Under the pieces are notes generated by a model. The model saw only the letters and a list, made by a program, of their open reading frames with translations. It was not told where the DNA came from and did not search any database. Positions 29,575 to 51,174 of a stretch of 64,000 nucleotides of DNA are shown here, in pieces. How positions within the stretch are numbered: the stretch's first letter is position 1; each line of letters opens with the position of its first letter. Source of the stretch: Norana najaformis (taxonomy: Eukaryota > Annelida > Clitellata > Crassiclitellata > Hormogastridae); contig OZ029927.1 in NCBI GenBank assembly GCA_964023275.1, forward strand, positions 1,434,817-1,498,816, written 5' to 3'. Made by a program: the position numbers and the translations under genes.

Positions 29575-30270
29575 GTTTGTAAAACGCGCAACTCGTCTTA
29601 TCGGCTTTACAAGATAGAAATATAGGCAGAAGCGTCGGCATGGTTTTGAAAGTGGTGGGCAAGCCAGAAGTTCCAAACAGTCCTCTTTCACAGATCCTAT
29701 CCTGCACCCTTCTTCCTCTTATCCCTCTTTCCGCTCCAATGCCAAACATTACCCACCGTAGCTGCCACGCTGTCTTTGCCTGACTCTTAGATCTTGACCT
29801 GGAACCGAACACTTTCGCCTATCGATTTTGTGTTGACTGAGCGTCTGTGATATAATCTGGTCCCCGTGACTTGGCTTTCGTTGGGCGCTGTAGAAATCTC
29901 GGGATTACGATTACGATTCTTTGAACCAGTAGGCCTAGGCTAGTGGAGCAGAATCGGGATGATTCACCAATCAGAACTGGCACTTAAATGTATCCACAGT
30001 ATTCAGATTTGCTCCCAAAATGCATAAAAACTGCTGGCGTACAAGGCTTTAAAAAATCTCCGCAAATCTAAATTCACTCCGCTGTCGCGGTGACTCTAAA
30101 CAGGTCAACTAAACACCTCACTAAAACAGTTAACTTAATATCAGAAAAGACTTAAGATTGCCTTAAAAAGTCAGGTTGGTATGTGGTCCTGGAAAGTTAC
30201 ATGGTTCATTTTAAGCGTAACGGTGTTTTCTATCTTGTGAAGCCGATAAGACGATATGTGCTTTTTATTA
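29575..30270. repeat. Inverted-repeat element with nested LINE tail
   Basis: Arms of about 45 bp at 29579-29625 and 30222-30268 are complementary around CGTCTTATCGGCTT. A LINE tail of family C, plus strand, is nested at 29680-29915. Possibly an old foldback or MITE element. Confidence 0.5.
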
Positions 30271-30737
30271 TAAAGATAACATTTAATAAAGTACCAATAC
30301 AACGTTACTTAGCATAGCAAGGGTTTCAAGTGATTCAGAAGACCTTTGATCTTTGTTAGAACCACAAAAATTACCGGGATTGCTTGATCAGTAGCCAGTC
30401 CTTCCTAGCTTCCTCTTCAAAGCTTTTATAAAGTCTACTGAGACACCCAAACCATTTCACAAGTACCCAGCACTTGCGTTGAGGAATTTCCACGCTTGTG
30501 AAGCATGTAGGTCATGCGAAGCCCAATGGAAATTGTTAAGTAGGCTTCGTGTAGGCCTATCCTACATGCGATATTGCTGTTAATGGCGTCAATAGTTATT
30601 ACGTTATTATCATTTGTCAGCTTGGCGTATTATACTCGTATGCGAAGAGCCTTTCATTTTAAATACAGGCCTACATATCCGTTAGCCAAGATAACGTCTT
30701 CCTGGTTGCATGCTTGAGTACAAACTATTTTGCCAAC

Positions 30738-30945
30738 TCGTAATCTCGAGATTTCTACAGCGCCCAATAAAAGCTAAGTCGCGGGAACCAGCTTATTCAC
30801 AGGCGCTCAGACAAAATAAAATCGATAGGCAAAAGGGTTCGGTTCCGAGTTAAGATCCAGCAGACAGTCGGACGGTGCTTGAAATTGAAGCGATAAGAGA
30901 GATAAGGGGCAGAACAATAATCAGGATAAGATTTTTGGAAAAGTA
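30738..30945 (-). repeat. LINE 3' tail fragment (family C)
   Basis: Reverse copy of the 5220-5490 tail, starting CGTAATCTCGAGATTTCTAC and ending at an AAGATTTTTGGAAAAG block. Confidence 0.7.
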
Positions 30946-31130
30946 ATGTAGATAATGGGATAATTGTTTTAACTGATAATCTGTTTCAATTCAAACCCAA
31001 TAATCCTCTAAGATCAAATTATCTCATGGTATTTCTTCACAGTTATTCTTTCAGTTATATTCTAAAATCATGCATGGTGCTTGCAATCTTGTGTTGTCGT
31101 TCCAGCTAACATCGAATTACCCCGTGAACT

Positions 31131-34100
31131 ATGAAGCGTGCTAACAGTGAAACTTTCGACGAAGGTTCCTCGCAGCCCTGGTTCTCTGGTCAAGTCAAAA
31201 CTATTCTGCATGCGAAGCGTTTCGGATTTATTCGGCCTGATTGCCAACTGCCAAGCGATTTTGTCCAGAAGGATGTTCATTTCTATCTAAACAAGGCGGA
31301 TAGTGAACTGCAGGAAGGGGATAATGTAATTTTTAAATTGAAAGAAGAACGCAAGGACTCTCCATCGGCGCTGACCGTCAGAAAGGTCGTTAACGATACA
31401 GCAATTGAACAAATCACGCATGAAGGAAAGCGACGAGCGAGGTCTGAAGTTAGACAAAGAATGGAATCCTCTCACAGAAGCTTAACACGTCAAAATGTTC
31501 TTGAAAACTTTGGGAGGCTAAGCATTGCCCAGACTTCATCGATGGATGACGGCAATGACAGCAGATCAGATATCAGTGACGATCACAGTATCAGATCCAT
31601 CGAAACGGATAAGAAAAATTTGGCCAGTGGAAGCCATCAGCCCCAAACTCCACAACGACGGACGAAAGTTTCAAAAGAGGAATTCATGAATCAGTTTGGA
31701 CAGATAACAGGAAGAATAGTGAAGATTACTGGACCCTCTGTCGTAATTACGCCAAAAACTAACTCACGCTCTTCGGCAAAAAGTGACATGCTGTACAATG
31801 CCCCTCACGCAGCCATCTCTTCTGGGCATCTCCCACTTGAAGTCGGGGATGAGGTTACTTTTGCAAGAAGTCAAAGGAAAACGGAACAAGCAATAAACCC
31901 AACCCTGACAAAATGTTCCAGGACAGTAGACAAACTTGAATGTTACTTAGGCGACCTTTTATCTCGGGTGCAGGAAATGAATGATTCCCGATCGCGAAAT
32001 TTTGTGGTGTCAGCTGTGACTTGTTTACCTGTCTGGGACTGCATTGGACGATGCGAAGAACTAAGCAACGACGCAATTGCGATGCTTAACAGCATTCTCG
32101 TGGGGTTAGAGGAACGATTCACAATGACAGAGAATGTCACTTCAGTTGTAGAAACGTTGTGGAAAACTCCTCTGTTTACTCAGCGCAGTAGTCGATTCAG
32201 CAGATACATACAAGACGTCTTGGATCAGAATAGAACTGAGAAAGCTGAAGTCATTTACAAAGTAATGTTGATGATGGCAAAGCAGGTTCCAGCTAAACTG
32301 AAATGCATCGTCAGAAATCTAGAACCACTAGCCACCAGTGGAGTAACAAGCTTCCTCTACAAAATGCTGAAACAGAGTGCCAAGTCTGAAGGCGGAGACA
32401 TCGAAGATTTCGCGTGGGATGAATTGCCGCTGGTTCCAACAGTCAACGAATTACTGGAAGGATCGTTGGAATCAGAGTTGCAGTTAAGAAGTGTTAACGA
32501 AATCGGAGCCTATGCGTCACCCCATGACTACGTTGACATATATTTTCGATTGCTTCGTTCAGATTGTTTCTCAGCCTTGTCCAAGGGAGCCAGGGACTTG
32601 TTGAACGGAACACTAGACAAGAGAGATATGAACGTCTACACCAGAGTTAGCATGGCTGGGTTTCAGGTGACTCAAAATGGAAATGGCATGGCGATTGGAC
32701 TTTCGTTCACGCCGATTCGTCAGGTGAGCAACTGGGATCAGTCTTCTTGCCTCATGTACGGTAATTTGTTGTGTATCTCTGTGTCGGGTACTTTTCGTGA
32801 TCCGATTTGGGCGACGGTGGTCAATCGAGAACTTTTGCAGAGTCATAAGATCGTTGTTGTTGAACTCTGCAGCGAGTGCAGTTCGTTGCCAGATAGTGAA
32901 GCGATCCTTTCTCTATATCTCTCCGGCAAAAGGGCGATCATGGTGGAGTCTCCGACATACTACAAAGCTTATCAGCCGATACTGAAATCATTACAATCTA
33001 TAGATCCAGCTGATTTACCATTCCAAGAAGAACTAGTACAGTGTAAAACAGGCGGTCCCCCGGAACTCATACATGATTACAGTACTTTTAATGCCAACAT
33101 TATCTACAAATGCCATATTAACGAGCCCCTTGACATCGCAACATATGATAGAATAAGTAAGCTACAGGAGACGGGGTTGGTTGGAAACGAGATCTTGGAT
33201 CGTAGCCAGGAAACGGCGATTCGCGAATGTTTGAAAAACAGAATAGCAATCGTTCAAGGTCCCCCGGGAACAGGTAAAACCTTTATCGGTATCAAACTCA
33301 TTCAGATTCTTTTGTCTCTTTCGACACCTCCAACGTCACCAATTTTAGTGTTGACGTACAAGAACCATTCTCTTGATGAATTCTTGAAAGAGCTCGTTCA
33401 GATTTTTCCAAATGGAGTAGCGAGGGTGGGTGGAAGATCGCAAGATGAGACCCTAGCTGAATGCAATCTGAGTGAACTGAGGAAAACATTCAAACTGCAC
33501 AAGGACGTGTACGAACAAGTGTTAAGTTTTAAAGCAGAAATAAGTACTTTGCAAAGCCAAATAAATGTCATGTTCGATGAACTTAATGCAAATCGTTATT
33601 TTTATCCTGAGACACTTATTGATCTTCTTTCCGAAGACCAGATCAAGGAATTTCTGCTAAAATGCCCATGGCATAAATGTGACAAAGTTAACCTTAAAAA
33701 TCATGCTGCTGATACCGATTGGAAAGAAGTTTCTAAAACAGTGTCACTTAAAGCCGTGACTGATTTACTTACAAAATGCGGCGATACCCCAATCGCGAAG
33801 CTCTTACAGCACACAGAACAAGATTTGGGTAGCAATATATACCGATTGCTTCAGGCAGCTGTTAAATGCTGGCAACCATCTTTATCTATATTCCAGAGTC
33901 TAAGTTCCGCATTCTCGACCCCAGCCATTAATCCCGTGATTGTTGGAGTAAGTGATGCAGCTAGTAAGATAGAACCTAATCCATCAACTGAAGTTGAAAT
34001 GGATGAAAAAGATGCAGAGGAAACACAGAAAGAAAGAATAGCTGCCGCCGGTCATCGCATTAAGGGTAAAGCAGAACTGTTAACGGAAATGAAAATGTTT

Positions 34101-37052
34101 GCTCCTATGAAAGAGAATGAAAACTCAAAACGGATTTGTTTGATGGAAAATGCAAAAGAAATTTCCAAACAGATGTCACCCGCCATGATGCTTGGTATCA
34201 GGAACATATGGGAACTAGATGTAACTGATCGAGCAAAACTGATTCAATGTCTCCTGTACAAGCAGTATCAGGAGGCAGGGGAGAAATTTGAGAAATTACT
34301 GGAAATCCAACAAAAGCTAATTAAATCAAAAGAAGAGCTCGAATCCCAACACAGAGCATCCATTCTCCAAAACAGAAAGATTGTTGGAATGACAATAACT
34401 GGAGCAAATATCAACCAACAACTCGTCTGGCAGATTAAACCGGAAATCGTTATAGTTGAAGAGGCAGCCGAGGTACTTGAACCTCAGATTATGGCACTCC
34501 TAGGAAGCTGGACAAAGCATCTCATAATGATCGGGGATCATAAACAACTAAGGCCATCTGTTGAGAATTACAATCTGTGTAAAAATTATCACCTCGACTT
34601 ATCAATGATGGAGAGGCTAATCAATAACAAACTTCCTTTCGCCACACTAAATCTTCAGAACCGAATGCGCCCGGAGTTTGCCGATCTCCTCTTTGATATT
34701 TATCCGACTCTCAATAGCAACCTTTCCAGGGTTAGAAAAAATTTCGCAGCCAACTGTATAGCCTCATCGATGTTTTTCTGGAGCCACAGTGACCCGGAGA
34801 CTTCTGGAAGAAGTTACATTAATGATAAGGAGGCTGATCGTGCCATTAAGCTGGCGATTTTCTTGATTCACCAGGGGTATAAGCCAGAACAAATCACGAT
34901 TCTGTCACCCTATCTCGGGCAAGTGAGACTGCTGAGGCGTAAAATGAAGAAAGAAGAAGAAACACATCCAGATCTCTTCCCAAAGCAAACGAGTTCTTCG
35001 GATGCAAAAGACAAGCCCACTGAGAAGAAATCAGTTCGCATTCATACAATTGACATGTATCAAGGAGACGAGAACGATTTTGTTATAATATCTCTGGTGA
35101 GGTCGAACGAGAAAGGCAGAGTCGGATTCGTCGGTGTTCTTAACAGGCGGTGTGTTGCTCAGTCGAGATCCAAGTGTGGTCTTTACTTCATCGGAAATAA
35201 GGATACTTTATCAAAAAGTCATAATTGGCTTTACGTTTTGAAGAAATTAGAGATTGATAACTACATTGGTGATGCATTTCAACTTCACTGTTCACAGCAT
35301 CCAACGTCCAAAGCTTTTGCCAAAACGGCTGAAGAAATCCCAACCGATGGAACATTTTGTAAAGTTCCTTGCAACCGGTTGATGCACTGTGAAAAGCACA
35401 AATGCGAAAAGTTGTTCCATTCAAGACATGGGCACTATCCCTGCAAAGTCCGTGTGAGTTTTACTTTCCCCCGATGTCTACACAGTGGCGAGAAGGAATG
35501 CAGTGCAGACGAAAATAAGGAGAAATGTCAGCAACAGGTTCCATTCGTATTTAAAAACTGCGGCCACTTTCGTAATCGCAATTGTTACGAGGAGGAAGAA
35601 AGTCTTGAATGTGCTAAGCCTTGTGAGAGGTTACTGGAAGAATGTAAGCATCCGTGTAAACTACCATGTGGGAAATCCTGCACTTCTATGCCATGTGCTG
35701 TGTGCAAACAAATTGCAGAGGAATTGGAAAAGGCAATGGCGCTGGCAGCGGAGCAGCGCAGGAACGAGTTCCGAAAACAGATAGATGAAGAAATCAAAGA
35801 AAAAAGCCGAGAGGCAGTCAAAGATATGGCTAGAACCGATCTGTCTAAAGACGGAGATACGGCGGCTGAGTACTTCAACATCGAGGATAAAGTCATAAAA
35901 TATATCCGACCTGAGCACAACTGGTTTCCACGAGTAACAAGAATTGAGAAGGTAACAAATCCAGCCCTAGAAATAAGATGGCTGAAGGCGCGAAGAAAGC
36001 TAATCGAACCGACTCATACTGAGCTCAAATTTCATGGCACAAGCCTACATGCAGTGGAAGGGATAATAAAAAATGGTTTCAAGATACCTGTAACAGGTAA
36101 ACAGATGTACGGGAAGGGAATTTACTTTGCCAGTGACTCGTCTAAAAGTGCACAGAAGTGCTACACCCAAGACTCACAGATGCTCCTCGTTTGTGAAGTT
36201 CTTCTCGGAAAGTGCAAGACAGAGAATCGCAGTAGGCCGGATATGACATTAGAGAGTCTGCGTCTATCCGGATATGATTCACTGTTCGCCAAAAGAGGCA
36301 CACAGTTCGAAGGCGGAGTCCACAACGACGAATTCGTTGTCTACGATCCGGACCAAGCTATTCCAAGATACATCGTTCACTACGAAGAAACCGATTATCG
36401 CACAGTGAACTTGGCCTCTGCACTCAAACCAACTTTAGGATCAGCCGGTCAACCTGTCACTACAAAATTTCACATTCCTCCTCCAACTCGGGGAGTAAAA
36501 GACGACGATCCCTTGGAAGGACATTTTCGATTAGCCGAATCCCAATTTCTTAGGCTCATGGGTCGACTGAATAGAGGAGGGGGTGCGGAGGTTCAGAGTG
36601 TGGATTATTACATTAATCCAACACTGGAAGATAAATTCAACAATATGCATGCAAACATGAAGACAAAATACCCGAAAAAGGAGCAGTCAGAATATATTCT
36701 TGCGTTTCACGGGACAAAACCGGAGAACATAGATTCCATCATTCAGCAAAACTTCGACATAAGAAAATTGGCTTCTGGTTCTGGAGATCGTGGTTATTAT
36801 GGCGCTGGAATATACTTCTCGGAATTTTCTTGTGTTAGTATAGATTATGCAGGTTGTGGCAAGCTACTACTTTGCAAAGTCCTTCCTGGAAAAACCTTTA
36901 TCTGTTCAGATCGGATGGTAGGAGCTTCTCTTCAAAGCGGCTATGAATCGCACGGCGTCAACCCGGATTCAGATGGAAGATGCGAAGAATTGGTCATATT
37001 CAATCCCGATCAGATTCTCCCATGCTATGTTATTTCTTATAAAATCCTATAA
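31131..37052 (+). CDS. ZNFX1-like RNA helicase with two C-terminal PARP domains
   Basis: A single uninterrupted frame of 1973 codons. A TTCCAG acceptor about 25 bp upstream suggests one 5' UTR intron. Residues about 15-88 resemble a cold-shock RNA-binding fold (HAKRFGFIRPD, DVHFY). A related segment may lie near 182-265. The SF1/UPF1-like helicase core has Walker A GPPGTGKT at 710-717, motif II VEEAAE at 1109, GDHKQLRP at 1135, QNRMRPEF at 1176 and MYQGDENDFV from 1309, with a region of about 390 residues between motifs I and II. Residues 1387-1525 are Cys/His-rich, like NFX1-type fingers. PARP domain 1 has H1635 (FHGT), Y1665 (GKGIYFA) and E1734 (NDEFVVYDPDQ). PARP domain 2 has H1860, Y1895 (GAGIYFSE) and E1953. 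Known family facts: ZNFX1 senses viral dsRNA in mammals and acts in small-RNA inheritance in worms, and lacks PARP domains. A role in RNA-triggered ADP-ribosylation is inference. Confidence 0.92.
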   Translation: MKRANSETFDEGSSQPWFSGQVKTILHAKRFGFIRPDCQLPSDFVQKDVHFYLNKADSELQEGDNVIFKLKEERKDSPSALTVRKVVNDTAIEQITHEGKRRARSEVRQRMESSHRSLTRQNVLENFGRLSIAQTSSMDDGNDSRSDISDDHSIRSIETDKKNLASGSHQPQTPQRRTKVSKEEFMNQFGQITGRIVKITGPSVVITPKTNSRSSAKSDMLYNAPHAAISSGHLPLEVGDEVTFARSQRKTEQAINPTLTKCSRTVDKLECYLGDLLSRVQEMNDSRSRNFVVSAVTCLPVWDCIGRCEELSNDAIAMLNSILVGLEERFTMTENVTSVVETLWKTPLFTQRSSRFSRYIQDVLDQNRTEKAEVIYKVMLMMAKQVPAKLKCIVRNLEPLATSGVTSFLYKMLKQSAKSEGGDIEDFAWDELPLVPTVNELLEGSLESELQLRSVNEIGAYASPHDYVDIYFRLLRSDCFSALSKGARDLLNGTLDKRDMNVYTRVSMAGFQVTQNGNGMAIGLSFTPIRQVSNWDQSSCLMYGNLLCISVSGTFRDPIWATVVNRELLQSHKIVVVELCSECSSLPDSEAILSLYLSGKRAIMVESPTYYKAYQPILKSLQSIDPADLPFQEELVQCKTGGPPELIHDYSTFNANIIYKCHINEPLDIATYDRISKLQETGLVGNEILDRSQETAIRECLKNRIAIVQGPPGTGKTFIGIKLIQILLSLSTPPTSPILVLTYKNHSLDEFLKELVQIFPNGVARVGGRSQDETLAECNLSELRKTFKLHKDVYEQVLSFKAEISTLQSQINVMFDELNANRYFYPETLIDLLSEDQIKEFLLKCPWHKCDKVNLKNHAADTDWKEVSKTVSLKAVTDLLTKCGDTPIAKLLQHTEQDLGSNIYRLLQAAVKCWQPSLSIFQSLSSAFSTPAINPVIVGVSDAASKIEPNPSTEVEMDEKDAEETQKERIAAAGHRIKGKAELLTEMKMFAPMKENENSKRICLMENAKEISKQMSPAMMLGIRNIWELDVTDRAKLIQCLLYKQYQEAGEKFEKLLEIQQKLIKSKEELESQHRASILQNRKIVGMTITGANINQQLVWQIKPEIVIVEEAAEVLEPQIMALLGSWTKHLIMIGDHKQLRPSVENYNLCKNYHLDLSMMERLINNKLPFATLNLQNRMRPEFADLLFDIYPTLNSNLSRVRKNFAANCIASSMFFWSHSDPETSGRSYINDKEADRAIKLAIFLIHQGYKPEQITILSPYLGQVRLLRRKMKKEEETHPDLFPKQTSSSDAKDKPTEKKSVRIHTIDMYQGDENDFVIISLVRSNEKGRVGFVGVLNRRCVAQSRSKCGLYFIGNKDTLSKSHNWLYVLKKLEIDNYIGDAFQLHCSQHPTSKAFAKTAEEIPTDGTFCKVPCNRLMHCEKHKCEKLFHSRHGHYPCKVRVSFTFPRCLHSGEKECSADENKEKCQQQVPFVFKNCGHFRNRNCYEEEESLECAKPCERLLEECKHPCKLPCGKSCTSMPCAVCKQIAEELEKAMALAAEQRRNEFRKQIDEEIKEKSREAVKDMARTDLSKDGDTAAEYFNIEDKVIKYIRPEHNWFPRVTRIEKVTNPALEIRWLKARRKLIEPTHTELKFHGTSLHAVEGIIKNGFKIPVTGKQMYGKGIYFASDSSKSAQKCYTQDSQMLLVCEVLLGKCKTENRSRPDMTLESLRLSGYDSLFAKRGTQFEGGVHNDEFVVYDPDQAIPRYIVHYEETDYRTVNLASALKPTLGSAGQPVTTKFHIPPPTRGVKDDDPLEGHFRLAESQFLRLMGRLNRGGGAEVQSVDYYINPTLEDKFNNMHANMKTKYPKKEQSEYILAFHGTKPENIDSIIQQNFDIRKLASGSGDRGYYGAGIYFSEFSCVSIDYAGCGKLLLCKVLPGKTFICSDRMVGASLQSGYESHGVNPDSDGRCEELVIFNPDQILPCYVISYKIL

Positions 37053-39110: not shown

Positions 39111-39828
39111 TGGATAAGCCGTCTGTCTGCAATCACTGCCTGGATTCCACCGCATGCATCTCTAGCATAGTCCGATGGGTGCTAGAGAGCGGAGACTGAA
39201 AAGGGGAGGGGAATCGACGTGCTTTTGTGCTCTTGGCTCTCCTCAGCAGCTGAGCGCAGCATAGCGGCTGCCTTCCAAGCGGATGAATTAATGCTTCGGC
39301 ACGCTGATTCGAGACGCCCAGATGCATTCCGAGATACGTCGTTTTTCACCAGCACTCCCCATCTTGAACCGACCAGGATTTCTCGAAAGCGTATTATTCA
39401 CCCTGCGGTCCTTCCCTACCTCGCGTCGTTTCATTCTCCCTCCCTCGCTGCCTCCCGCCATTCAAGCCACTCCCCCCTCACTGCCTCTGCCCGTCTGTCC
39501 GTCCGTCACACTTGCGCTTCGAGCAGCGGCCGGCGCTCATAGATGCGATTGCAGGTGACGGTCGATCACGATGAAATGATTGGCAACACCTGGTCGAAAA
39601 GGCAGCGTCTAAAGAACACCTGTGCAGGTGGTCGACGGCAGAGGAGGAGGAGGGGGCTCGACAGCTACACCAGTGCCTGCTCAATTAACGCCCCGAGCAA
39701 GCGAGCGGAACAGTGGGATACCGGCTTCGGTGCGAGCGACCATAGGCCGACGACTAATCAGCGCAGTGCAATCGATGATAACGACGCAGACGATTGAAGC
39801 GGCCACACATCAGAGAAATCGGAACAAC

Positions 39829-42800
39829 ATGACCTGTCGCGACATCTCCATCAACGTTATCTCATCTCGATCGTCCCTGCTGCTGCTGCTGATCATCATC
39901 TCCCTCGTCTCATCCTCGGCACTGTCCTCCGGGCCTCGAAGGACTGCCACGGCCGGGAACGATGCCGCCATCAAACAGCTGACGAAGGTCTTTGGAATCG
40001 AGAAGGTTCCCGAGCCGACACGACATCTGAGACACAGATCGCCGCCCGAGTACATGACGGAGCTCTACCAGATGGTCGCCTACCAGGACGGGATCAGCAA
40101 AGTGGCCAGTCCCTATGACGCTGACGTCGTCCGCGGAATCCCAGACAAAGGCAAGTCGCTACTATCCGGTGGTGACAGGTTACCGTTCTCACCTGGACAA
40201 AGGAGGGAACTTATTAGCGGTAGATTAGTCAAGGAGGTGAGTGAATTAGCAATAGATTAGTCAGGGTCTTTAGAACGATTGGTCGCGACAATGAACTGCC
40301 TGCATTTGGAGACCAAGGTGAGTCACTGTTGCGATTATAAGTTGTTGGAGCGTGGGAGAATGTTTCCGACGAACACATGTGACTTAATTGAAGTAAATTA
40401 CCGAGGAATTTTCCATATTCACAACTAACGCAGACGGATTCAGATTAAGGGCGAATCCAAGGGCACTCCTCCGGTCCTCCCATGGTCCATCTGAGATTAG
40501 AGGTTGGGCCCTTGGTCCCGCCCTTGCACACTTGCTCTTGTTTCTTTTCACTGGCTTCCTAAACTCAGATGGGTCGACCAAGGCCAGAGTAGTCTGCATT
40601 CAAGTGAATTCCGGAGCAGCTGCTGTCGTCTTTCAACTCCAGCTGGGAATCTGTAGGTATGGCTCCGCGTGTGCGTGACAGCTTGCTACCGGTAACTCTT
40701 CTAGTTATCAGCGCAATATTTGCTAACGAACTAATGTTCTGCTCTTAATAGCTGTAACATCGTAACAGCTAGCGGAAAGAAAGCCCGTTTTTTCTGAAGA
40801 TGCGCTATACAAATTTCTCACTGAAATTACAATCACAATTTCAATTGTGAGTCAGTGTATAGTATCAATACCTTGGTTCAAAATGAAGAATAGGATGAAA
40901 GTACAAAAATTGAGTCCAAAGTTAATGTGAGTCCGTAGCGTACACAGGCCTACATGATCTCAGCATCACAAGTAGACTGAATTTCCATAATGAATGCAGG
41001 CATCGTGTGAGAAATCTATGACCCAGGCATCTTTTATAACTGACCAACGTCATTGTTAATATTATTCCTCGTCTCGTCGTCGTCATCATCATCATCATCT
41101 TCATCATCATCATCATCGCCATCATCAACATCATCACCACCACCACCACCATCACCACCACCACCACCATCATCATCATCAGTATCATTCTCCTCCTCCT
41201 CATCCTGCTACCATTGCTGCTGCTACACTGCTGCAGCAGTAGCAGCAGCAGTGGTAAGCATCTTTACCCCTATCGCCGTTTTTCTAAAAACTGAAACTGA
41301 TCCAATGGATCTGGTCGCTTTTGTCTTTTTGGGGCGGGCTTGATTTGATTGACTTGTTCTTCCCTAGGTTTTATCTTGACTGTGAGCATGTAGATAAAAT
41401 AAACTGGTTTCCGCATGTTAGCTCGTTTTTGCTTTTAAGAAATGCAGTTTACGATTTTGATATAATTTTTATTCCAGCATTACCGAAGGAATTTTAAAGT
41501 TACATGAAAATGTACACGCTTTTCTATAGCGATCATATTGTCTCGACCCTGCTCATTTTTCTATGAATTTATCGGGTGAGATCCTTCATCACCACTGCCT
41601 ATTTGAATGTGTGTCACGCCAGTTAAGGCCCCCATGCACGGACCGTGCTAGCCCGAGATTAAAATCTTTGAAATAAGCCACGATCAGTATGCGAACCGGC
41701 ATCCTCACGCCCATAGGAATCTAGCCGCTCGCTGTAACCAATGTAGCTAGCTCGGCGGGTAGCAGTTAACTATAACTGTGTGTTTCTTGAGAAAACACTC
41801 GAGAGCTGAACTTAAGCGATGATTGAGAAATATCATCAAATAAAATGTTAAATACTGAAAACAAAAACCAATAAGAAATAAAAATAAAATTAAATAAATA
41901 ATATCATCAAATAAAATTTTAAATAAGGAAAATAAAAACAAATAAATATATGTGTGTATATATATATATGTCTGCGCGTCGATAGATGCTTTGTTCTGCA
42001 AATATAGCAGCGCTAAACAGCAGTCTCCAGATTGGACTGGATCAGAGGGTCACTCTGGGCTACACAGATAATCAATTTCACACGCGATACACGGATTCGA
42101 ATCCGAGATCTAGACTGAACTGTTTTCACACGCCCACCAACACTCAGTAACCAAAATATTAATTCGCATAAAGCCTTCAACTTCCAGACAAAAACAACAG
42201 CCATGTTTAAATGCACACAGAGTCATACTGGCATGCACGCATACAGCTATACACACAAGCCTACGCGAACGTATGTGTTGCATGTGTGCGTGTATGCTTA
42301 TATGTATGTGTAGATAATCTCATGTCTAAGAGACGCCATCTTGTGTCAGTTTTCATAAGCGACGAGTGTATTACGGTCGATTCCATTAGATGCTAAACGC
42401 CAGGATAACAGGGTCGCTAATCCTCAAGCCACGCCGCTGCTGCTGCTGCTGCTGGTGTTTTCGATGCAGAGCTGCGCATTTGGAGAGCAGTGGGAGCTGC
42501 AGATGTGAAAGCGGAATGCACTCATCCAACATAAAGCATCTTATCGGCGATAATCCCAGACCATTCGGTCCGCAAAGCCAACAGAGAATTGGAAGGGAGG
42601 GTGGTGGGTGGACTGAGTGGGACTAGGATTAAGTGGAACGAGGATTCAATTATAGGAGGAGGATTCAGTGGATGGGTGGCTTCGGTGGGAGGAGGAATCC
42701 GCTGGAACAAGCTTTTGTGGTGAGGCACACAAGCTGCCTGGATAGAGCGCGCGGCTTATAACGCAAGGAGTACGGGTTCGAGCTTCCTCTGAGAGGATTA

Positions 42801-45800
42801 CTGTGTATGGACTTTGAGAAAGCCCTTCCCTTACAATTGTTCAGCGCCATTAGATAATGGCGCTTAATAAATGCAGAAGCAATGAAAATCATTCAGTGGA
42901 GGATTCACTGGAAGGAGGATTAGGTGGGCGAGTGGACTAAGTGACAAGAGAAGGATTGAGAGGGATATACCCTATAGAGTTAAACCCCGGAACAATCCAA
43001 TTAGTCTCCGTGAGTGAAAGAAACAGGTGTATAGCGGGGAAAACTGCCTACGCGGAACGAGGATCAGCTGGAGGGTTGGTACAACTGGAGCCTTTTTCTT
43101 GAAAATTGTTCACCAAACTCTGCGCTACAAGACTCGCAAGATTCGAATACAGGGACATAATATATGCATTTGAGTTACTTTATGAAAAATTGACAGTTTT
43201 TCTTCAAGCTACGTAAACCGCAGGGAAAGATTGTCCATGGTGTTGTTACTGCCTTACTGTTGTTACTCCCTTACTGTTGTTACTGCCTTGCTGTTGTTGT
43301 TGCCTTGGTGTTGTTGTTGCCTTGGTGTTGTTGTTGCCTTGGTGTTGTTGCCTTGCTGTTGTTGTTGCCTTGCTGTTGTTATTGCCTTGTTGTTGTTGCC
43401 TTGCTGTTGTTGTTGCCTTGCTGTTGTTGTTGCCTTGCTGTTGTTGTTGCCTTGCTGTTGTTGTTGCCTTGCTGTTGTTGTTGCCTTGCTGTTGTTGTTG
43501 CCTTGCTGTTGTTGTTGCCTTGTTGTTGTTGTTGCCTTGCTGTTGTTGCTGCCTTGCTGTTGTTATTGCCTTGCTGTTGTTGTTGCCTTGCTGTTGTTGT
43601 TGTTGCCTTGCTGTTGTTGTTGTTGCCTTGCTGTTGTTGTTGTTGCCTTGCTGTTGTTGCCTTGCTGTTGTTGTTGCCTTGTTGTTGTTGTTGCCTTGTT
43701 GTTGTTGCCTTGTTGTTGTTGTTGCCTTGCTGTTGTTGTTGCCTTGCTGTTGTTGTTGCCTTGCTGTTGTTGTTGCCTTGTTGTTGTTGTTGCCTTGCTG
43801 TTGTTACTGCCTTGCTGTTGTTGTTGCCTTGCTGTTGTTGTTGCCTTGCTGTTGTTGTTGCCTTGCTGTTGTTGTTGCCTTGCTGTTGTTATTGCCTGGT
43901 TGTTGTTGCCTTGCTGTTGTTGTTGCCTTGCTATTGTTGCCTTGCTGTTGCCGTGCCGAAATATTCTTGCACCCAGTAACTCACCTCTGAGGAGTTATGT
44001 GCAACATAGGAGAGATGACTTTACCTACCTTCCTTACCTTACCTTACCTAAAGAAGCATCCAGTTAGTTGAGTATCGTTTAACTATAGACTGCCTTTGCA
44101 ATCTACCCGGTTTCACGTCTTCTAGGACAGGGAGAGAAGTGCTCGTTGTTTCAAAGGGGAACATTGTTCACGTACACACATAGACTATGAATTATAAAAT
44201 ATAGGCCTAAAATGTGTGCGTGCGTGTATGTCGTTTATATATTCGTATGTGATTGAGTTAGACAGGCTTTTAAATGGATTTTCATTCAAGAAGAAGCTCT
44301 GTTTTTCGAATTCCCTTCCTAATTGAAAACAAGCCTTTCTTGAAGTGTATTACACCTAGGCATCCTAGCGATAAGGCGCTATATAAGAATTCTTTATTCT
44401 TTATAAATATAAATTTTTATCCTAGACTGTGGTATATTCGGTAGCGCTGCTGCTGTAATCCAACGATGGGTTCGAGACTGCACAGCGGACTCCGTGTAAC
44501 GACGCTGAACAAGTTCAATAAATAAAATAAATAAGTAAACAGTCGATAAAAAGGAGATAAACAGGATGAGCAGGGAATACGAGGTAATTATAAAGAGGCG
44601 TTTACGAAATTACCGACCCTGGAATTTCATGCATAAGGGGCACCTGCATCCAATGCCCCTCTCCAAGGATCCTGCCAGTGAAGTGGGACAGTGCAGTCGG
44701 CATTTCGACTGATGCGCCCTTTGTGCTGAAGGCACATCTGACGGACACCTGTTCTAATTATTCCATCACGCCGTCCGCTAGGTGTCGCTGTTGAGTGCTC
44801 TTGTAAATCAGCCGTTTCAACGGGTTTCCCTATTAACGCCTCGTTATGCGAGCCAGTGTCAGGCTGCGGTCCCCACACAGACAACTACGCATGTGTCGCT
44901 TGTACGACAGACGACGAGTTTGACGATCAACGGCCGCCAAGTGCAAAACGTAAACACGAAACACCCCAGACAAGTCTATCACCTCAACGACCCCTAACAA
45001 TAATTGCGCATCAGGAACTACAATGGGAAGAATGGTACCGCAACAATCGATTGAACATACAACATTAGACGTGCGAATATGAAAATGTGGACTACAATAC
45101 ACACATTATCGTCTTCTTTCATACGCACAGAGGGCTATACGCGACGCGGAGTAGGTCTATTCTATTGAGAAAAATGTTAGGTCTATTTTATATTCACGCA
45201 ATAAGAACTGAGCTTGAATTTGCACGTGCGCTGTAGTGAATGATTGATAGCATAATTTTTGTTCTCAAAGGTGTCCTGTTTTGGCTTCATTTCTCCGCAG
45301 TGTACACATTTAAGAGAAGAAGAAGCAACAGACACTAGTGTAGTCAAAGCACTCATTGACATAATTGTCTGGCAGTCGCTGTGGCCTATAGCCAGACAGT
45401 AGTGTGGCCTTTTGAGTAATCAAACAGAATTGCCTAGCCTAGTCACTGAATGTGCTTTGACACCAGACATCTGATGTCTATGAACGTTTTAGCCACGCTA
45501 TAATGTCTGTTAGTAGACTACTTTTAAGAGATTATTCAGTATGATACTCGTTTACAATTGTTGTGTACTTGCCGTTAAATTAGTTTTATTATTAACCTTA
45601 CATAAAATTAGTTAATTAAATAATTAATTAAAATAATTTAACAGTTTACTAGTGACTTTGCATCTACAACTAATAGGCCCTATTAATCGACGACAATTAT
45701 TTTAATTCACATTAGTTGTAGAAATTCCTAAATTCTATAAAAGTGAAACCACTGCAGCACGGCGGTCTATCATATAGCGCTGTTGGTCTATAATCCAACG

Positions 45801-48800
45801 ATTGTGGGTTTGAGCTTATTCAGTGAACTGACTGTAAGCATGCTGTAAATGCACAGGTGCCTCTGTTATACCAAGCAATTATTGGTAGATGGAGATAGAG
45901 TGAGCTCGTACCCCTGACCTTGGGATTCGTCCACTGCCGGCCCAAAGACCTATGAAAAGGAAGCGAGCTTCTTCCCCACGTCCAAGTACGAGATATAGGA
46001 GACTTTACTTACTCACTAAATTTATGCTACATGCAGACTTTACTTACTTATAAAACTTATGTTCCAGCTGTTTGTATATTGATATAGCGCCCATGCAGCA
46101 GATCTTCTATTTGTTCAACTTATCTCACGTCAGTCGTGTGGAGAGCATCCTCGAAGCCGAGTTCCATCTCTTCAAGCTCCGTCCGGCTGGTACAGCATCA
46201 CAGTCTCCTCCAGCATCATCAGCAACCTCCTCAGCCGACGACAGAACTCATCGAAGGACGACCAGAGATGTGCACGTAATCGATGTAAGATCCAGCTGAA
46301 GAAGACCCAAATTTTATTAGGCCTATATTAAAAGCCCACACAACATATATAACTGAACTCCACCACTACTGTACCCTGGTAGTGCCAGTCCCAAACCTGG
46401 ATAAAGGAGGAGGGCGACGTAAACGGCCTTTGATGCCGTAAGATGTCGTTACTCATTGGAACTACTACCATATAAATACTTTTGTATATCTTCGTGTATA
46501 TATATGTGTGTTTATATATGTATGAAGATTGTGGGTATCCTTGAATCTATGTTCATCATGAAATATTAGCAAGCGTGTGTCCGCATAGGCCTAACGATAT
46601 GTATTTATATACACACAGTTGTATGTCTCTATGTGTATATATAGGTGTATATCCTATGCACAAGAGTATATATATATAATGTTAGGCTTATCTCTCCTCC
46701 TTAAGTGAGCGCTCAACCGAGGATCTCTTCGCTCTATTCAACTCATCGGTTCTTCCTCTCATTGATGCCCTCCTTCCTCTCCGTCCTCATCGGATTCGCT
46801 CGAGACCACTACGACCTTGGCTTGACAGCCAATGCCGCGCTTTACATCGGAACACCAGACGTCTAGAGCGCCGACATCGTCGTACTCGTGATCCTGCTGA
46901 TCGCCTTACCTGGACCCATCACCTTCGAGATATGTATTCCGTTTTCCGAACCAAAGAAACTTCGTATTGGGAGTCGCTGATTGACAGAGAAAAAGGAAAC
47001 CCACGTCGCCTCTGGTCATCACTTGCTGACGTCCTAGGTCGTTCCTCACCTTCCTCCTCCCACTCTCAGCATCCGTTCTCTGCAGACGACTACTTGGACT
47101 TTATGCGATCCAAGATTGACTCGATCCGTCGATCTACTGAGGATTCATCCCTACCGTCCTTCCCTACCACAACTGCCAACCTCTCGTGCTGGGAAACCCT
47201 TCAACCGGATGTCCTTCGTCGACTTATACTGGACTCTTCCTCGGCCATGCGAACTTGACCTACTTCCTCCATTTCTAATTAAGGAATTTGTTGATGACTT
47301 TCTTCCTTTTCTACATTTATTATGTAATTCGTCAATGAGTCAGGGTTTCATTCCAGCGTCACATAGAAGGGCAGTTGTTTTTCCCTCCCTCAAGCGCCAA
47401 GGCCTGGACCCTAACTCTCCTTCTAACTATCGTCCTATTTCTAACCTTACCTTCCTCTCGAAGCTCCTTGAAAGGTGTATCTCTTTTCAACTGGTTGAGT
47501 ACCTTGAATCTAATTCTCTCATGCCTCCCCTTCAATCTGGTTTTAGAAAATTCCATTCGACAGAATCACTCATCACCCGCCTTCTAGCTGACTTCTTTCA
47601 TGCCTTTGACCATGGCCATGTCACACTTCTTGCTCTCTATGACGTCAGTGCTGCCTTTGACACTGTTGATCATTCCATTCTTCTAGAACGACTATCTAAA
47701 TCCTTTGGCCTTACTGACTCTGCTCTTCTTTGGTTTCGCTCAATTCTCTCTGATCGCTCTCTTTCTGTTATTTTTGGCCCCACTCGCTCTGCCTGGACTC
47801 ACATTCCCTATGATCTTCCTCAGGGCTTGGTACTTGCACCGCTTCTATATATCCTATATACTGCTGACCTCGCCAGTATACTTCTCCCCTTGGGTGTTTC
47901 GTCTCACCAATATGCTGATGACAATCTTTTACTCATGGCCCGGCTGCCTCAGACACTCTGATGGTTGAGCGGATCCTTGAGGCCACCTCTGTTCTAGATC
48001 TCTGGATGTCTTCTAACCGCCTCTGTCTTAATCCTGATAAGACTCAATATATCTGGCTATAGGTGGCCGTGTCCAGCTTGCCAAAATTGACTTTAGTTCT
48101 CTTTCCTCTAATTTCCCTCATATCCATTTATCTTCCTCAGTCCGTGACCTCGGAATCATCCTGGATCAAACTCTTTCTCTGACTGACCATGTAAATAATA
48201 TCTCCCCCTCTTGTCTTTACCACCTACGACAACTCCGCTCTATTCGTCACTCGCTTCCTCTTCACGCGATCACTACCTTGGTCCATGCCCTGATCTGCAC
48301 TAGGATTGACTTTGGCAATGATGCCTATATTGGACTTTCTGCAATTAACACCTCCAAGCATCAGTCTATACTTAATGCTGCTGCACGCCTTATCGGTGGT
48401 CTTCCAAGGTCTGCCCATATATCTACTTTTATTCGTGACTCACTTCATTGGCTTCATGTCAGTCAACGCATCCAGTTTAAGATTCTAATCCTTATGCGCA
48501 ACTGCCTTCTAGGCTCTGCTCCGTCCTACTTAACTTCTTTTTGTATTCCGGTTTCCTCGTTGCCTGCCCATGCCTCCCTTCGCTCAGCTACCCGTGGTCT
48601 CTTGGTAGTCCCTCGTGTCCGCACTACAACTGCCCAGTCCAGGAGCTTTGCCTTTGTTGGCCCTTCCAGCTGGAACTGCCTTCCTCTTGAACTGCGGCTT
48701 CAGTTATTTAGTCTCTCTCCTACCCAGTCTCGCAAACGCCTGAAATCCTTTTTGTTTGTTCAAGTCGGGAGCGCCACTGTTTCCTAAGTGGCGCTTTATA

Positions 48801-50768
48801 AATGTTAGTTTACAATTACAATTACATAAACACACGCGTGTCAGTGTGCTACAACAGCTACGGATAGGTATAAATATTATGAATGACTAGGTAATCGTTA
48901 AGCGCAGCAATGGTGGGACTGAGGCAATAATTTTGAGACCAAGAGAGTAACATCAAGACCAATGCAATAATCGCAAAGAACAAAACCAAGACAGGTGACC
49001 CTTGGGACCATGTCCAAGACCGAAGCACTTCAGCGGCAAGGAACATGGCCACAACGCAATCAAAAACTACAGATCCGAAAATGTTACTTAAATGAATTAG
49101 GTCTATTTTAGTTTGAAATTGTTTATTTAATTGAATTAATTAACTGAATTACTTAAATGAAATTAATTTTAAAATTTATTTCTGCCTTACTCTGCACTTT
49201 ATCGCCGAAATCTAAATAGCCTAATAGGTCTAAAACTATTTAAATAAATGCAGACATACCGCCATGTTCACAAGTCGGCCGCCTTACTATCTGCTACGCA
49301 CCCTTTTATCTGGCACCACTTTGAAGTCTAAAGAGCAGAAGGTGGTTGTGGTTTGCAGCTCCGCGTGTACCAAGTCCTCACGCGTGAAATAGATTCACTG
49401 ATCCGTGACGGTGGTTCCTCGATGCCGGAGAACGACAGCGAGACGAACGAGAACTTGCGGCTGCTGCACAAGCGACGCATCTCCGGACATTACAAACCCG
49501 GATGGGAAGTCTTCAAAGTCGGAGATACAGTGCGACAGTGGATCAATGACTCCACCACTAACCACGGTCAGTCACGCCCTTGAACGTCATAGGTGGAGGT
49601 CAACAATGGGATAATAATAATAAACTTCTAATGCGCCGGTGTCTAATGCACAAGGCATCAACCGATGGCGCACCAAAGCCAAGCCGCAGTCAGGTCAATA
49701 TCCAGAAGGTCAGTCCACAGGACAGAGAGGCAGCCTATGGTGGATACGCAATTTGAAAAAGGATACGCATAGCACACCCAATTTGCCGTATGGGTAGCGC
49801 GGTATTTATTTTTTTATACACGAGCCAGGGAAGAGAGAGTTTTGACAATTTTACTAATGGCACATAGCTAACGGGTGCAACAGATGATTCTCCAGAAAGG
49901 ACATTTGCCGAACTAGCGCGCAAGAGGCAAGTAATCTGTATTCTGTGCAATATGCGTGATCTTGTTAAGGTTTCTTGGTGACGGTGCGTTCCTCTGATGG
50001 TCATCTGGTCAACGGGACGCACCTTCGATTCGCTCAGCGGATGGAACACCACGACAGCAAACAACCCGTCCTCATCGTCTTCACCGACGACAAGACACGA
50101 CATCGAATAGCACAGGATATCGGTACATTTCTTTGTTATCTAAACATAACCACTCAGATCTAATCTATTGCGGTAGGAGTGTACGCGTTCTCCCACTTTT
50201 TGGACTGAGGGTATCGTACCCCATTTTTTATATCGTGAGTAAGCAGTGCCCTTTAAGTTTTGTATGAGCTTGGCATTCTCCAATGACTTTGTAATCGGAA
50301 ACTCCAAATTTCTAAACCCACTACTTAAAACCCAAGACCAGGACACCAGCTTATTCACGAGCGCTGCGTCAATGTAGTTGGGTTGTCCGGTTGCCAGAAG
50401 ACCAGAGAGAAAAGGGAAAGGCGTTGTCAGGGTGGGTTGTGTCTAAAATGAGAGAAACAGGAAGGCAACTGACTGGATGGATCAGGGTGGGACTTTTCAT
50501 ACTGTTAGTCAAAAAGGAGGGGAAGAAATTGGTATTCGAACTTTCTAGACCAAAGCATGTATTTTTGTATAGATTTCATGGAGGACGAGGCTTACAAACC
50601 ACCGACGGTCGACAGCGACCTTCGAGCGATGCGGCAGACGTACATCAAGTTCTTGAACGAGGGCTACAGAGCACAGCATGGTTCGTTCAAGCGCCGACAG
50701 ACCTACATGAGTCCATTCGTCCACCAGCGTCTCCTCAACTCAACATCACAACATCCCCATCAGCAGCA

Positions 50769-50801
<33 letters not shown>

Positions 50802-51174
50802 GCGCTCGAAACGGTCTCCAGCCGATCAATACAACCGCTACACTCGGCGTCGCAAACGGACCTGTCAGCGCCAGGAGATGTACGTCGACTTCGAGAAGAT
50901 CGGCTGGTCCGGGTGGATCATTTCGCCCAAGGGCTACAACGCCTACCACTGCAAGGGCGTCTGTCCTTTCCCACTCGGGCAGAACCAGAAGCCGTCGAAT
51001 CACGCCACGGTCCAGAGCATCGTGTACGCACTCAAGATCGGATCCGATGTCGACACGCCCTGTTGCGTACCTAACAAACTCTATTCCATTAGTCTGTTGT
51101 ACTTCGATGACGATGAAAACGTCATACTCAAACAGTATGATGAAATGGTCGCCGCCAGTTGTGGATGTCACTGA
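39829..51174 (+). CDS. admp: ADMP-like BMP-family ligand (5 exons)
   Basis: Exons 39829-40236, 46099-46284, 49359-49566, 49970-50122 and 50573-51174 join in frame into 518 residues. The ATG at 39829 is chosen because a signal peptide (SSLLLLLIIISLVSSSAL) follows. The prodomain has the ADMP-type start (IKQLTKVFGIEKV, RSPPEYMTELYQMV), then FNLSHVSRVESILEAEFHLF, LRVYQVLTRE and a VTVRSSDGH segment. Furin-type sites RSKR and RRRKR precede the mature domain, which has seven cysteines (TCQRQ, YHCKGVCPFPL, PCCVPNKL, SCGCH) and one seven-Cys cystine-knot unit. A Gln/His-rich run at about 50758-50805 separates the cleavage region from the prodomain. AATAAA lies at 51283. ADMP is a secreted ligand made on the Chordin side of the embryo and repressed by BMP signalling, signalling through BMP receptors. 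Family assignment rests mainly on the prodomain; the ligand fold itself is certain. Confidence 0.9.
41065..41240. repeat. (ATC/ACC)n trinucleotide microsatellite
   Basis: About 170 bp of CATCAT/CACCAC/CTGCTG triplets in ADMP intron 1. Poly-Ser/Pro and poly-Met frames here are artefacts. Confidence 0.9.
41510..41715 (-). repeat. tRNA-derived SINE, family D
   Basis: Same strand and layout as 2195-2430 (ATCGGGTGAGATCCTTCA, GGACCGTGCTAGCCCGAGAT). Confidence 0.7.
42728..42890 (+). repeat. tRNA-derived SINE, family A
   Basis: Head with GATAGAGCGCGCGGC and B-box-like GGGTTCGAGC, ending CTTAATAAATGCAGAAG. It is shortened by an internal deletion. Confidence 0.7.
43240..43952. repeat. Minisatellite, TTGCCTTGCTGTTGTTG-type unit
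   Basis: About 710 bp of 15-, 18- and 21-bp units in ADMP intron 1. Because all units are multiples of three, three plus-strand frames stay open (Leu/Cys/Val/Ala repeats). No initiation context, splice signal or domain suggests translation. Confidence 0.9.
44058..44364 (+). repeat. 311-bp duplicated segment, copy 2
   Basis: Second copy of 38544-38854 (307 bp here), inside ADMP intron 1. It is followed by CTAGCGATAAGGCGCTATAT, not by the sequence that follows copy 1. Confidence 0.9.
44430..44520 (+). repeat. SINE B head fragment
   Basis: Contains TATTCGGTAGCGCTGC and B-box-like GGGTTCGAG followed by TCCGTGTAACGACGCTG, as in the family B head. Confidence 0.55.
44594..44794 (+). CDS. Orphan Cys-rich terminal exon, possibly Pinhead
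   Basis: The frame opens after a TAA at 44591 and ends in TGA at 44792. It encodes up to 66 residues with six cysteines in a secreted-protein pattern: GISCIRGTCIQCPSP, then an ordered stretch without cysteine (ILPVKWDSAVGISTDAPFVL), DTCSNYSI and a closing ARCRC. The Cys-X-Cys end recalls cystine-knot-like growth factors. The start is uncertain: AG acceptors at 44594-44595 or 44596-44597 are possible but have weak pyrimidine tracts. Known context: Pinhead, a small secreted cysteine-rich protein, is a genomic neighbour of Admp in ascidians and other animals. Calling this Pinhead is inference from position and cysteine pattern, and finding it inside an ADMP intron is odd. No upstream exon was found; a Leu-rich frame at about 42436-42490 lacks a good start and donor. 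Confidence 0.45.
   Translation, partial: RGVYEITDPGISCIRGTCIQCPSPRILPVKWDSAVGISTDAPFVLKAHLTDTCSNYSITPSARCRC
45770..45995 (+). repeat. tRNA-derived SINE, family B
   Basis: Sense copy: AGCACGGCGGTCTATCATAT head, GGGTTTGAGC B-box-like stretch, TTGGGATTCGTCCACTGCCG body. Confidence 0.7.
46690..48830 (+). mobile_element. CR1/L2-type LINE, 5'-truncated and broken
   Basis: Lies in ADMP intron 2, same strand. The reading moves across frames: RRLERRHRR and an SYWESLIDREKGN segment (to about 47258), then the reverse-transcriptase core at about 47275-47961 (NYRPISNLTFLSKLLERC, SAAFDTVDHSILLERL, DLPQGLVLAPLLYILYTADL, QYADDNLLLM with the YADD catalytic motif). After a stop come RIDFGNDAYIGL and the GSAPSYL...SWNCLPLEL end (48278-48787). 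The endonuclease is missing and frames are interrupted, so it is dead. The 3' end is TGTTAGTTTACAATTACAAT. It shares its end with 18955-19355. Confidence 0.88.
50285..50500 (+). repeat. Family E repeat in ADMP intron 4
   Basis: Matches 25640-25790 through CCGGTTGCCAGAAGACCAGA and GACTGGATGGATCAGGGTGG. It ends about 75 bp before the exon 5 acceptor, so the branch-point region may be repeat-derived. Confidence 0.6.

Follow-up and report, generated by a model that had tools for sequence, protein, structure and literature searches.

Human ZNFX1 (NFX1-type zinc finger-containing protein 1) has recently been reported to be an RNA-activated ubiquitin ligase, which recognises long single-stranded RNA in an ATP-dependent manner, ubiquitinates itself and builds higher-order assemblies. 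The modification of RNA itself is disputed, one group reporting ubiquitin on RNA 2'-hydroxyls and another the quarantine of RNA in aggregates (both as presented in the excerpted text of PMC13270118). The C-terminal region of the human protein is described as carrying an RZ finger with a Cys/His dyad (PMC12075652). ADP-ribosylation of RNA by PARPs has also been reported in human cells, where ADP-ribose-capped mRNA was shielded from XRN1 and remained untranslated (PMC9458441). In the survey by Citarelli et al. 2010 (PMC2964712), animal clade 3 PARPs, finger-bearing ones included, are described as having lost the glutamate of the H-Y-E catalytic triad, which most demonstrated polymerases retain.

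The locus considered here lies in a window of 64,000 nucleotides, C15:1434817-1498816, of the Norana najaformis genome (608 Mb, 17 contigs). The longest stop-to-stop frame in the window spans 1974 codons, the runner-up 309, and the protein that it encodes, hereafter the target, has the features collected in Table 1. A first-pass annotation had placed a helicase, a Cys-rich region and two PARPs in one uninterrupted ORF of 1973 residues, and a single open frame was indeed found; the genome-wide search recovered an identical frame, from the same assembly and therefore not as an independent check. A TGA lies in frame at 31125, one codon 5' of the ATG, and indicates that the N-terminus is complete within this exon, and the acceptor-like sequence directly before the start codon makes a separate 5'UTR exon ahead of 31131 possible. 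Third-position GC was 0.42 in the ORF, 0.37 and 0.46 in exons of a neighbouring HEAT-repeat-like gene and 0.69 in a TGF-beta exon, and the ORF looks like a host gene.

Table 1. Features of the target and their positions in the window.
Feature	Residues	Window position	Strand	Basis
Splice-acceptor-like sequence directly before start codon		31094..31105	+	By eye
Coding frame, CSD-ZNFX1-helicase-Cys-rich-PARP-PARP	1973 aa	31131..37052	+	Intronless, ATG start, internal stops 0
Cold-shock domain (CSD)	19-85	31185..31385	+	Pfam 1.7e-6, 28.2 bits vs cut-off 27 (barely above); FGFI at residue 31
ZNFX1 domain (PF25396)	497-607	32619..32951	+	Pfam 2.2e-13, 50.6 bits vs cut-off 27
SF1 helicase core	~690-1357	33198..35201	+	Pfam AAA_11 3.4e-23 / AAA_12 1.3e-31
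Cys-rich stretch	1410-1525	35358..35705	+	18 Cys, one C-x-H-x-C-x3-C unit
PARP-A catalytic domain	1579-1752	35865..36386	+	Pfam, scanned alone 5.6e-29, 101.5 bits vs cut-off 26.7; triad H1635, Y1665, E1734
PARP-B catalytic domain	~1825-1973	36603..37049	+	Pfam, scanned alone 1.8e-13, 50.9 bits vs cut-off 26.7; triad H1860, Y1895, E1953

As the window contains no N and the junction is seamless and in frame, we assign a negligible probability to an assembly artefact that fused two genes. That the helicase and PARP parts stem from separate transcripts, whether by internal promoters or by splicing within the frame, is very unlikely: the lack of AATAAA or ATTAAA on the plus strand between 37001 and 39500 would fit such an arrangement, whereas the frame stays open through all parts over its 1974 codons and the paralogues are likewise coded by long uninterrupted frames. 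Indeed, all nine ZNFX1 loci of the genome lie in frames of 820-2273 codons, so that long open frames are usual for the family here and give no sign of a retrocopy in the target. Blasi's 2022 work on metazoan ZNFX1 is reported to find that copies from invertebrates frequently consist of a single exon or a few.

Directly upstream of the ORF, at 29780-30867, inverted arms 71 and 59 nt long, with a complementarity of 82 and 88%, stand at a distance of 0.8-0.9 kb and are perhaps a foldback-type element. A retroelement reverse transcriptase (RVT_1, 3.4e-20 at 47038-47958, within 46686-48784) is flanked on one side by a TGF-beta propeptide match at 39613-40257, weak and below cut-off, and on the other by a clear TGF_beta domain (5.3e-35 at 50509-51171). 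At 43241-43950 there is a minisatellite whose 17-bp unit recurs about 42 times with 89% matches.

The helicase part was compared with proteins of known structure, and the best PDB match of the target was human ZNFX1 (9q9z, 384-385 bits), aligned over residues 425-847 and again over 1014-1482. The helicase motifs are intact (GPPGTGKT 710, EEAAE 1110, GDHKQLRP 1135, QNRMRP 1176, YQGDE 1310 and AQSR 1343), motif II being EEAAE in the target and human ZNFX1 alike. The SF1 motifs listed in the first-pass annotation (GPPGTGKT, VEEAAE, QNRMRPEF, MYQGDE) were present in the translation. Judged by these similarities, the helicase part is a diverged member of the ZNFX1 family. The parts list of the first-pass annotation was right as to the helicase, the Cys-rich region and the two PARPs and had overlooked the N-terminal cold-shock domain. 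A second OB fold suspected by eye at residues ~183-262 was not supported, Pfam returning just an unrelated weak match there, and structure prediction of residues 1-290 alone gave an unusable model (mean pLDDT 41.1).

The region behind the helicase had been labelled NFX1-like. Residues 1381-1543 contain 19 Cys and a single C-x-H-x-C-x3-C unit, and the Cys-rich stretch can be aligned with human ZNFX1 up to residue 1482, so that the label holds in these respects, while Pfam assigned no family to residues 1381-1543 at E<=10. Since no zf-NF-X1 match was obtained in the eight paralogues either (Pfam, E<=0.001), this silence says little. The same C-x-H-x-C-x3-C unit occurs five times in seven of the eight paralogue frames and once in the paralogue frame of 820 aa. 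Neither the genome search of contig C15 nor Pfam on the target protein returned an RZ finger. Moreover, residues 1526-1676 and 1696-1900 contain no Cys, which leaves no place where an RZ finger would fit on either side of PARP-A, before it up to the Cys-rich stretch or after it up to PARP-B.

The target was then set against its relatives in the same genome by domain searches carried out exon by exon in six frames, the counts of which are lower bounds. The ZNFX1 domain was located at nine loci: the target on C15, five loci on C3, a pair on C5 and a single one on C9, the target being the weakest with 56.7 bits. The RZ finger was matched at seven places. Four are on C5, a pair downstream of each ZNFX1 frame; C16 carries two more and C8 the last, and the genome search gave none on C3, C9 or C15. 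Of 48 PARP places, the target accounts for two; C5 has none, and none lies near the C3 and C9 ZNFX1 copies. The frames of the eight other ZNFX1 loci contained neither PARP nor CSD (Pfam, E<=0.001), and the genome search placed no CSD near them. Over the nine loci, therefore, RZ accompanies two, PARPs one (the target only), and six have neither listed in the frame or nearby. As six other copies are without a listed RZ, its absence is not special to the PARP-bearing copy, and a diverged or split RZ could escape a search made exon by exon in six frames. Both C5 ZNFX1 frames reach GQGHWFKCPNGE within ~18 codons of their ends and the downstream RZ matches start at profile position 17, the C5 RZ finger presumably being split between exons.

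The C5 locus (C5:2890156-2916491; L024, L025) comprises two near-identical ZNFX1 genes at a distance of ~13 kb; behind each lie two separate RZ matches, and the paired RZ exons could be alternatives. On C3 (C3:46346810-48082927; L026, L028-L031), four ZNFX1 copies lie within ~145 kb and the fifth 1.6 Mb off; two are near-identical in opposite orientation, and the frames hold up to 146 Cys, yet no RZ is listed.

Similarity to human ZNFX1 amounted to 1002 bits for the first C5 copy, 825 for the copy at C3:48.08M and 385 for the target, whose identity to its paralogues is only 30-36% in the aligned part of the helicase. A tree with no outgroup was built from nine ZNFX1 rows, which had been cut by hand to 868 of 1090 columns, those of the shared region; it did not include the RZ exons or the second frame of L030, which is 419 aa long and has no Pfam match. 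The target had a very long branch (4.24), which makes its position in the tree unsure. It may be an old separate lineage, not a rebuilt RZ copy, and on so long a branch it may have drifted to another job.

The C-terminal part was examined for its PARP content. Pfam found PARP in two stretches (1.2e-39 overall), and each was recognised separately by PF00644 with the H-Y-E triad complete and aligned in PARP-A and PARP-B alike, which bears out the two PARP catalytic folds read from the translation by the first annotator. The best PDB matches were PARP2 for PARP-A (3.5e-10) and tankyrase for PARP-B (6.8e-8). The two domains are 27% identical to each other over 193 aligned columns (53.9 bits), and PARP-B matches another PARP of the genome (L007) about equally well (52.8 bits); the pair could have originated either by internal duplication or by two acquisitions. 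Structure prediction of PARP-B with PARP-A gave an unusable model (mean pLDDT 38.1).

Among five other PARPs that were aligned with the target, out of 46 PARP places outside it, the third triad residue was I in four and L in one. A PARP2-like gene, assigned by eye, has E, and in a PARP1-like gene, likewise assigned by eye, the residue falls at an exon edge and was unreadable. A cluster of PARP frames at C6:10933318-10974624 (L011-L013), opening shortly before the catalytic domain, has I at this position in the three aligned. The E in both target PARPs, read with the clade 3 rule as given in PMC2964712, suggests that they fall outside the usual class of antiviral mono-transferases and could synthesise chains of ADP-ribose, H-Y-E alone being no guarantee of polymerase activity. 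Decidedly improbable, in our estimate, is that the PARP domains are inactive, or just scaffolds or ADP-ribose readers, and the protein a purely RNA-binding helicase. PARP-B, the weaker match (1.8e-13), covers profile positions 24-126 of 199, and PARP9 and mammalian PARP13 are described as inactive (PMC8102003, PMC2964712), whereas H, Y and E are retained in both target domains, unlike in PARP9 or the animal clade 3 mono-transferases as described in PMC2964712.

Taken together, these data suggest, with about an even chance of being right, that the target is a diverged ZNFX1 that lacks the ubiquitin-ligase module, i.e. the long finger array and RZ, has two H-Y-E PARPs in its place and an added N-terminal CSD, and would use NAD+ to mark or trap RNA-protein particles. 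Our reading is that the RNA-sensing helicase was retained and the C-terminal output enzyme was switched from ubiquitin to ADP-ribose. As standard ZNFX1 already bears a C-terminal RZ ubiquitin ligase, the PARPs are likely to represent a replacement and not a plain addition, and we infer replacement as opposed to independent assembly. The fusion reading of the first-pass annotation was sound as to the architecture, with the helicase part now placed in the ZNFX1 family, and had missed the RZ ubiquitin ligase of the standard protein. Coupling of RNA recognition to ADP-ribosylation in one polypeptide is a reasonable expectation by analogy, given that the human protein links the sensing of RNA to ubiquitin transfer and that RNA can be modified by mammalian PARPs.

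In the proposed mechanism, RNA would be bound by the cold-shock domain and the helicase, and ATP-driven loading or clustering on long RNA would bring the PARPs of the target together. These would then use NAD+ to place ADP-ribose on the target protein itself, on bound proteins or on RNA, and the ADP-ribose would mark or trap the RNA-protein particle, as ubiquitin reportedly does for human ZNFX1. Beyond the domain content, we infer every one of these steps, namely RNA dependence, activity, substrates and antiviral purpose.

An antiviral role is suggested by analogy with the ZNFX1 family, and the function might instead be that of an RNA-homeostasis or germline factor, i.e. a granule helicase whose PARPs tune granule assembly by auto-modification, which we consider unlikely. 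In C. elegans, ZNFX-1 functions in germline RNA inheritance. Both human studies cited in PMC13270118 are presented there as agreeing on a role in RNA homeostasis and in the damping of stress responses during interferon signalling. On the other hand, three ZNFX1 transcripts of Aplysia fall among interferon-response orthologues that form a co-expression module in ageing neurons, some members of which were mapped to oyster virus-response genes (as reported in PMC8195618), and the several ZNFX1 copies of the present genome look like an immune-family expansion; both points concern ZNFX1 relatives, not the target itself. A bolder form of the replacement reading, which we offer as tentative and somewhat doubtful, is that in this lineage an ancestral RNA-activated ubiquitin ligase was turned into a poly(ADP-ribose) polymerase, likewise activated by RNA, which would operate alongside RZ-bearing ZNFX1 of the same cells and coat RNA particles, viral or aberrant, with ADP-ribose, ZNFX1 then being a modular RNA alarm with an exchangeable output.

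If both ends of the protein work, RNA or its neighbours would be tagged by a different chemistry than ubiquitin, and a single polypeptide would link ZNFX1 with the PARPs, which are separate branches of innate immunity. A natural ZNFX1 relative with another output enzyme would identify the helicase as a general platform triggered by RNA, and would allow a test of whether RNA clustering needs ubiquitin itself or any bulky tag.

The fusion is known here from one genome. The whole protein, represented by six peptides mostly outside conserved motifs, gave no pattern match in viral contigs and ten in prokaryote genome contigs, none of which was confirmed by tblastn, and the PARP-B/PARP-A alignment, represented by two such peptides, gave 121 pattern matches in viral contigs with none confirmed; with these peptides, all three are weak negatives. 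In phages, tblastn returned ten records with one place each (one helicase, nine PARP) and no fusion. A ZNFX1/NFX1-PARP fusion is undescribed among the matches listed in the open-licence literature, and the words helicase, NFX1 and UPF1 do not occur in the main text of the PARP survey of 2010 (PMC2964712). The fusion may already be known, e.g. in domain databases.

Finally, the target can be compared with the systems described so far. With the bacterial Mokosh defence helicase MkoA, which matches region 684-1362 (PADLOC 3.8e-51), it shares the helicase alone in this match. The oyster TRADD-N/DED-KH-RRM-macro-ART proteins, which are invertebrate and lineage-specific, resemble the target in combining RNA-binding domains with a C-terminal ART, and no SF1 helicase or NFX1 region is described for this architecture in the excerpted text of PMC8195603. 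Tankyrase and PARP1/2 have the H-Y-E triad in common with the target PARPs, whereas ankyrin, SAM, WGR and PARP regulatory domains are absent from the Pfam matches of the target. The antiviral PARP12, PARP13/ZAP and PARP7 also bear fingers and a C-terminal PARP; they differ in having CCCH fingers and WWE and I or V replacing the triad E, and the excerpts of PMC2964712 and PMC8102003 mention no helicase domain in these proteins. More generally, the third triad residue is no longer E in the clade 3 antiviral mono-ART PARPs as described in PMC2964712, and is E in both domains of the target. Human ZNFX1 (9q9z) and the C5 copies share with the target the ZNFX1 domain, the SF1 helicase motifs and the start of the Cys-rich region; in comparison with them, the target is without RZ, apparently also without the long finger array, and adds an N-terminal CSD and two C-terminal PARPs.
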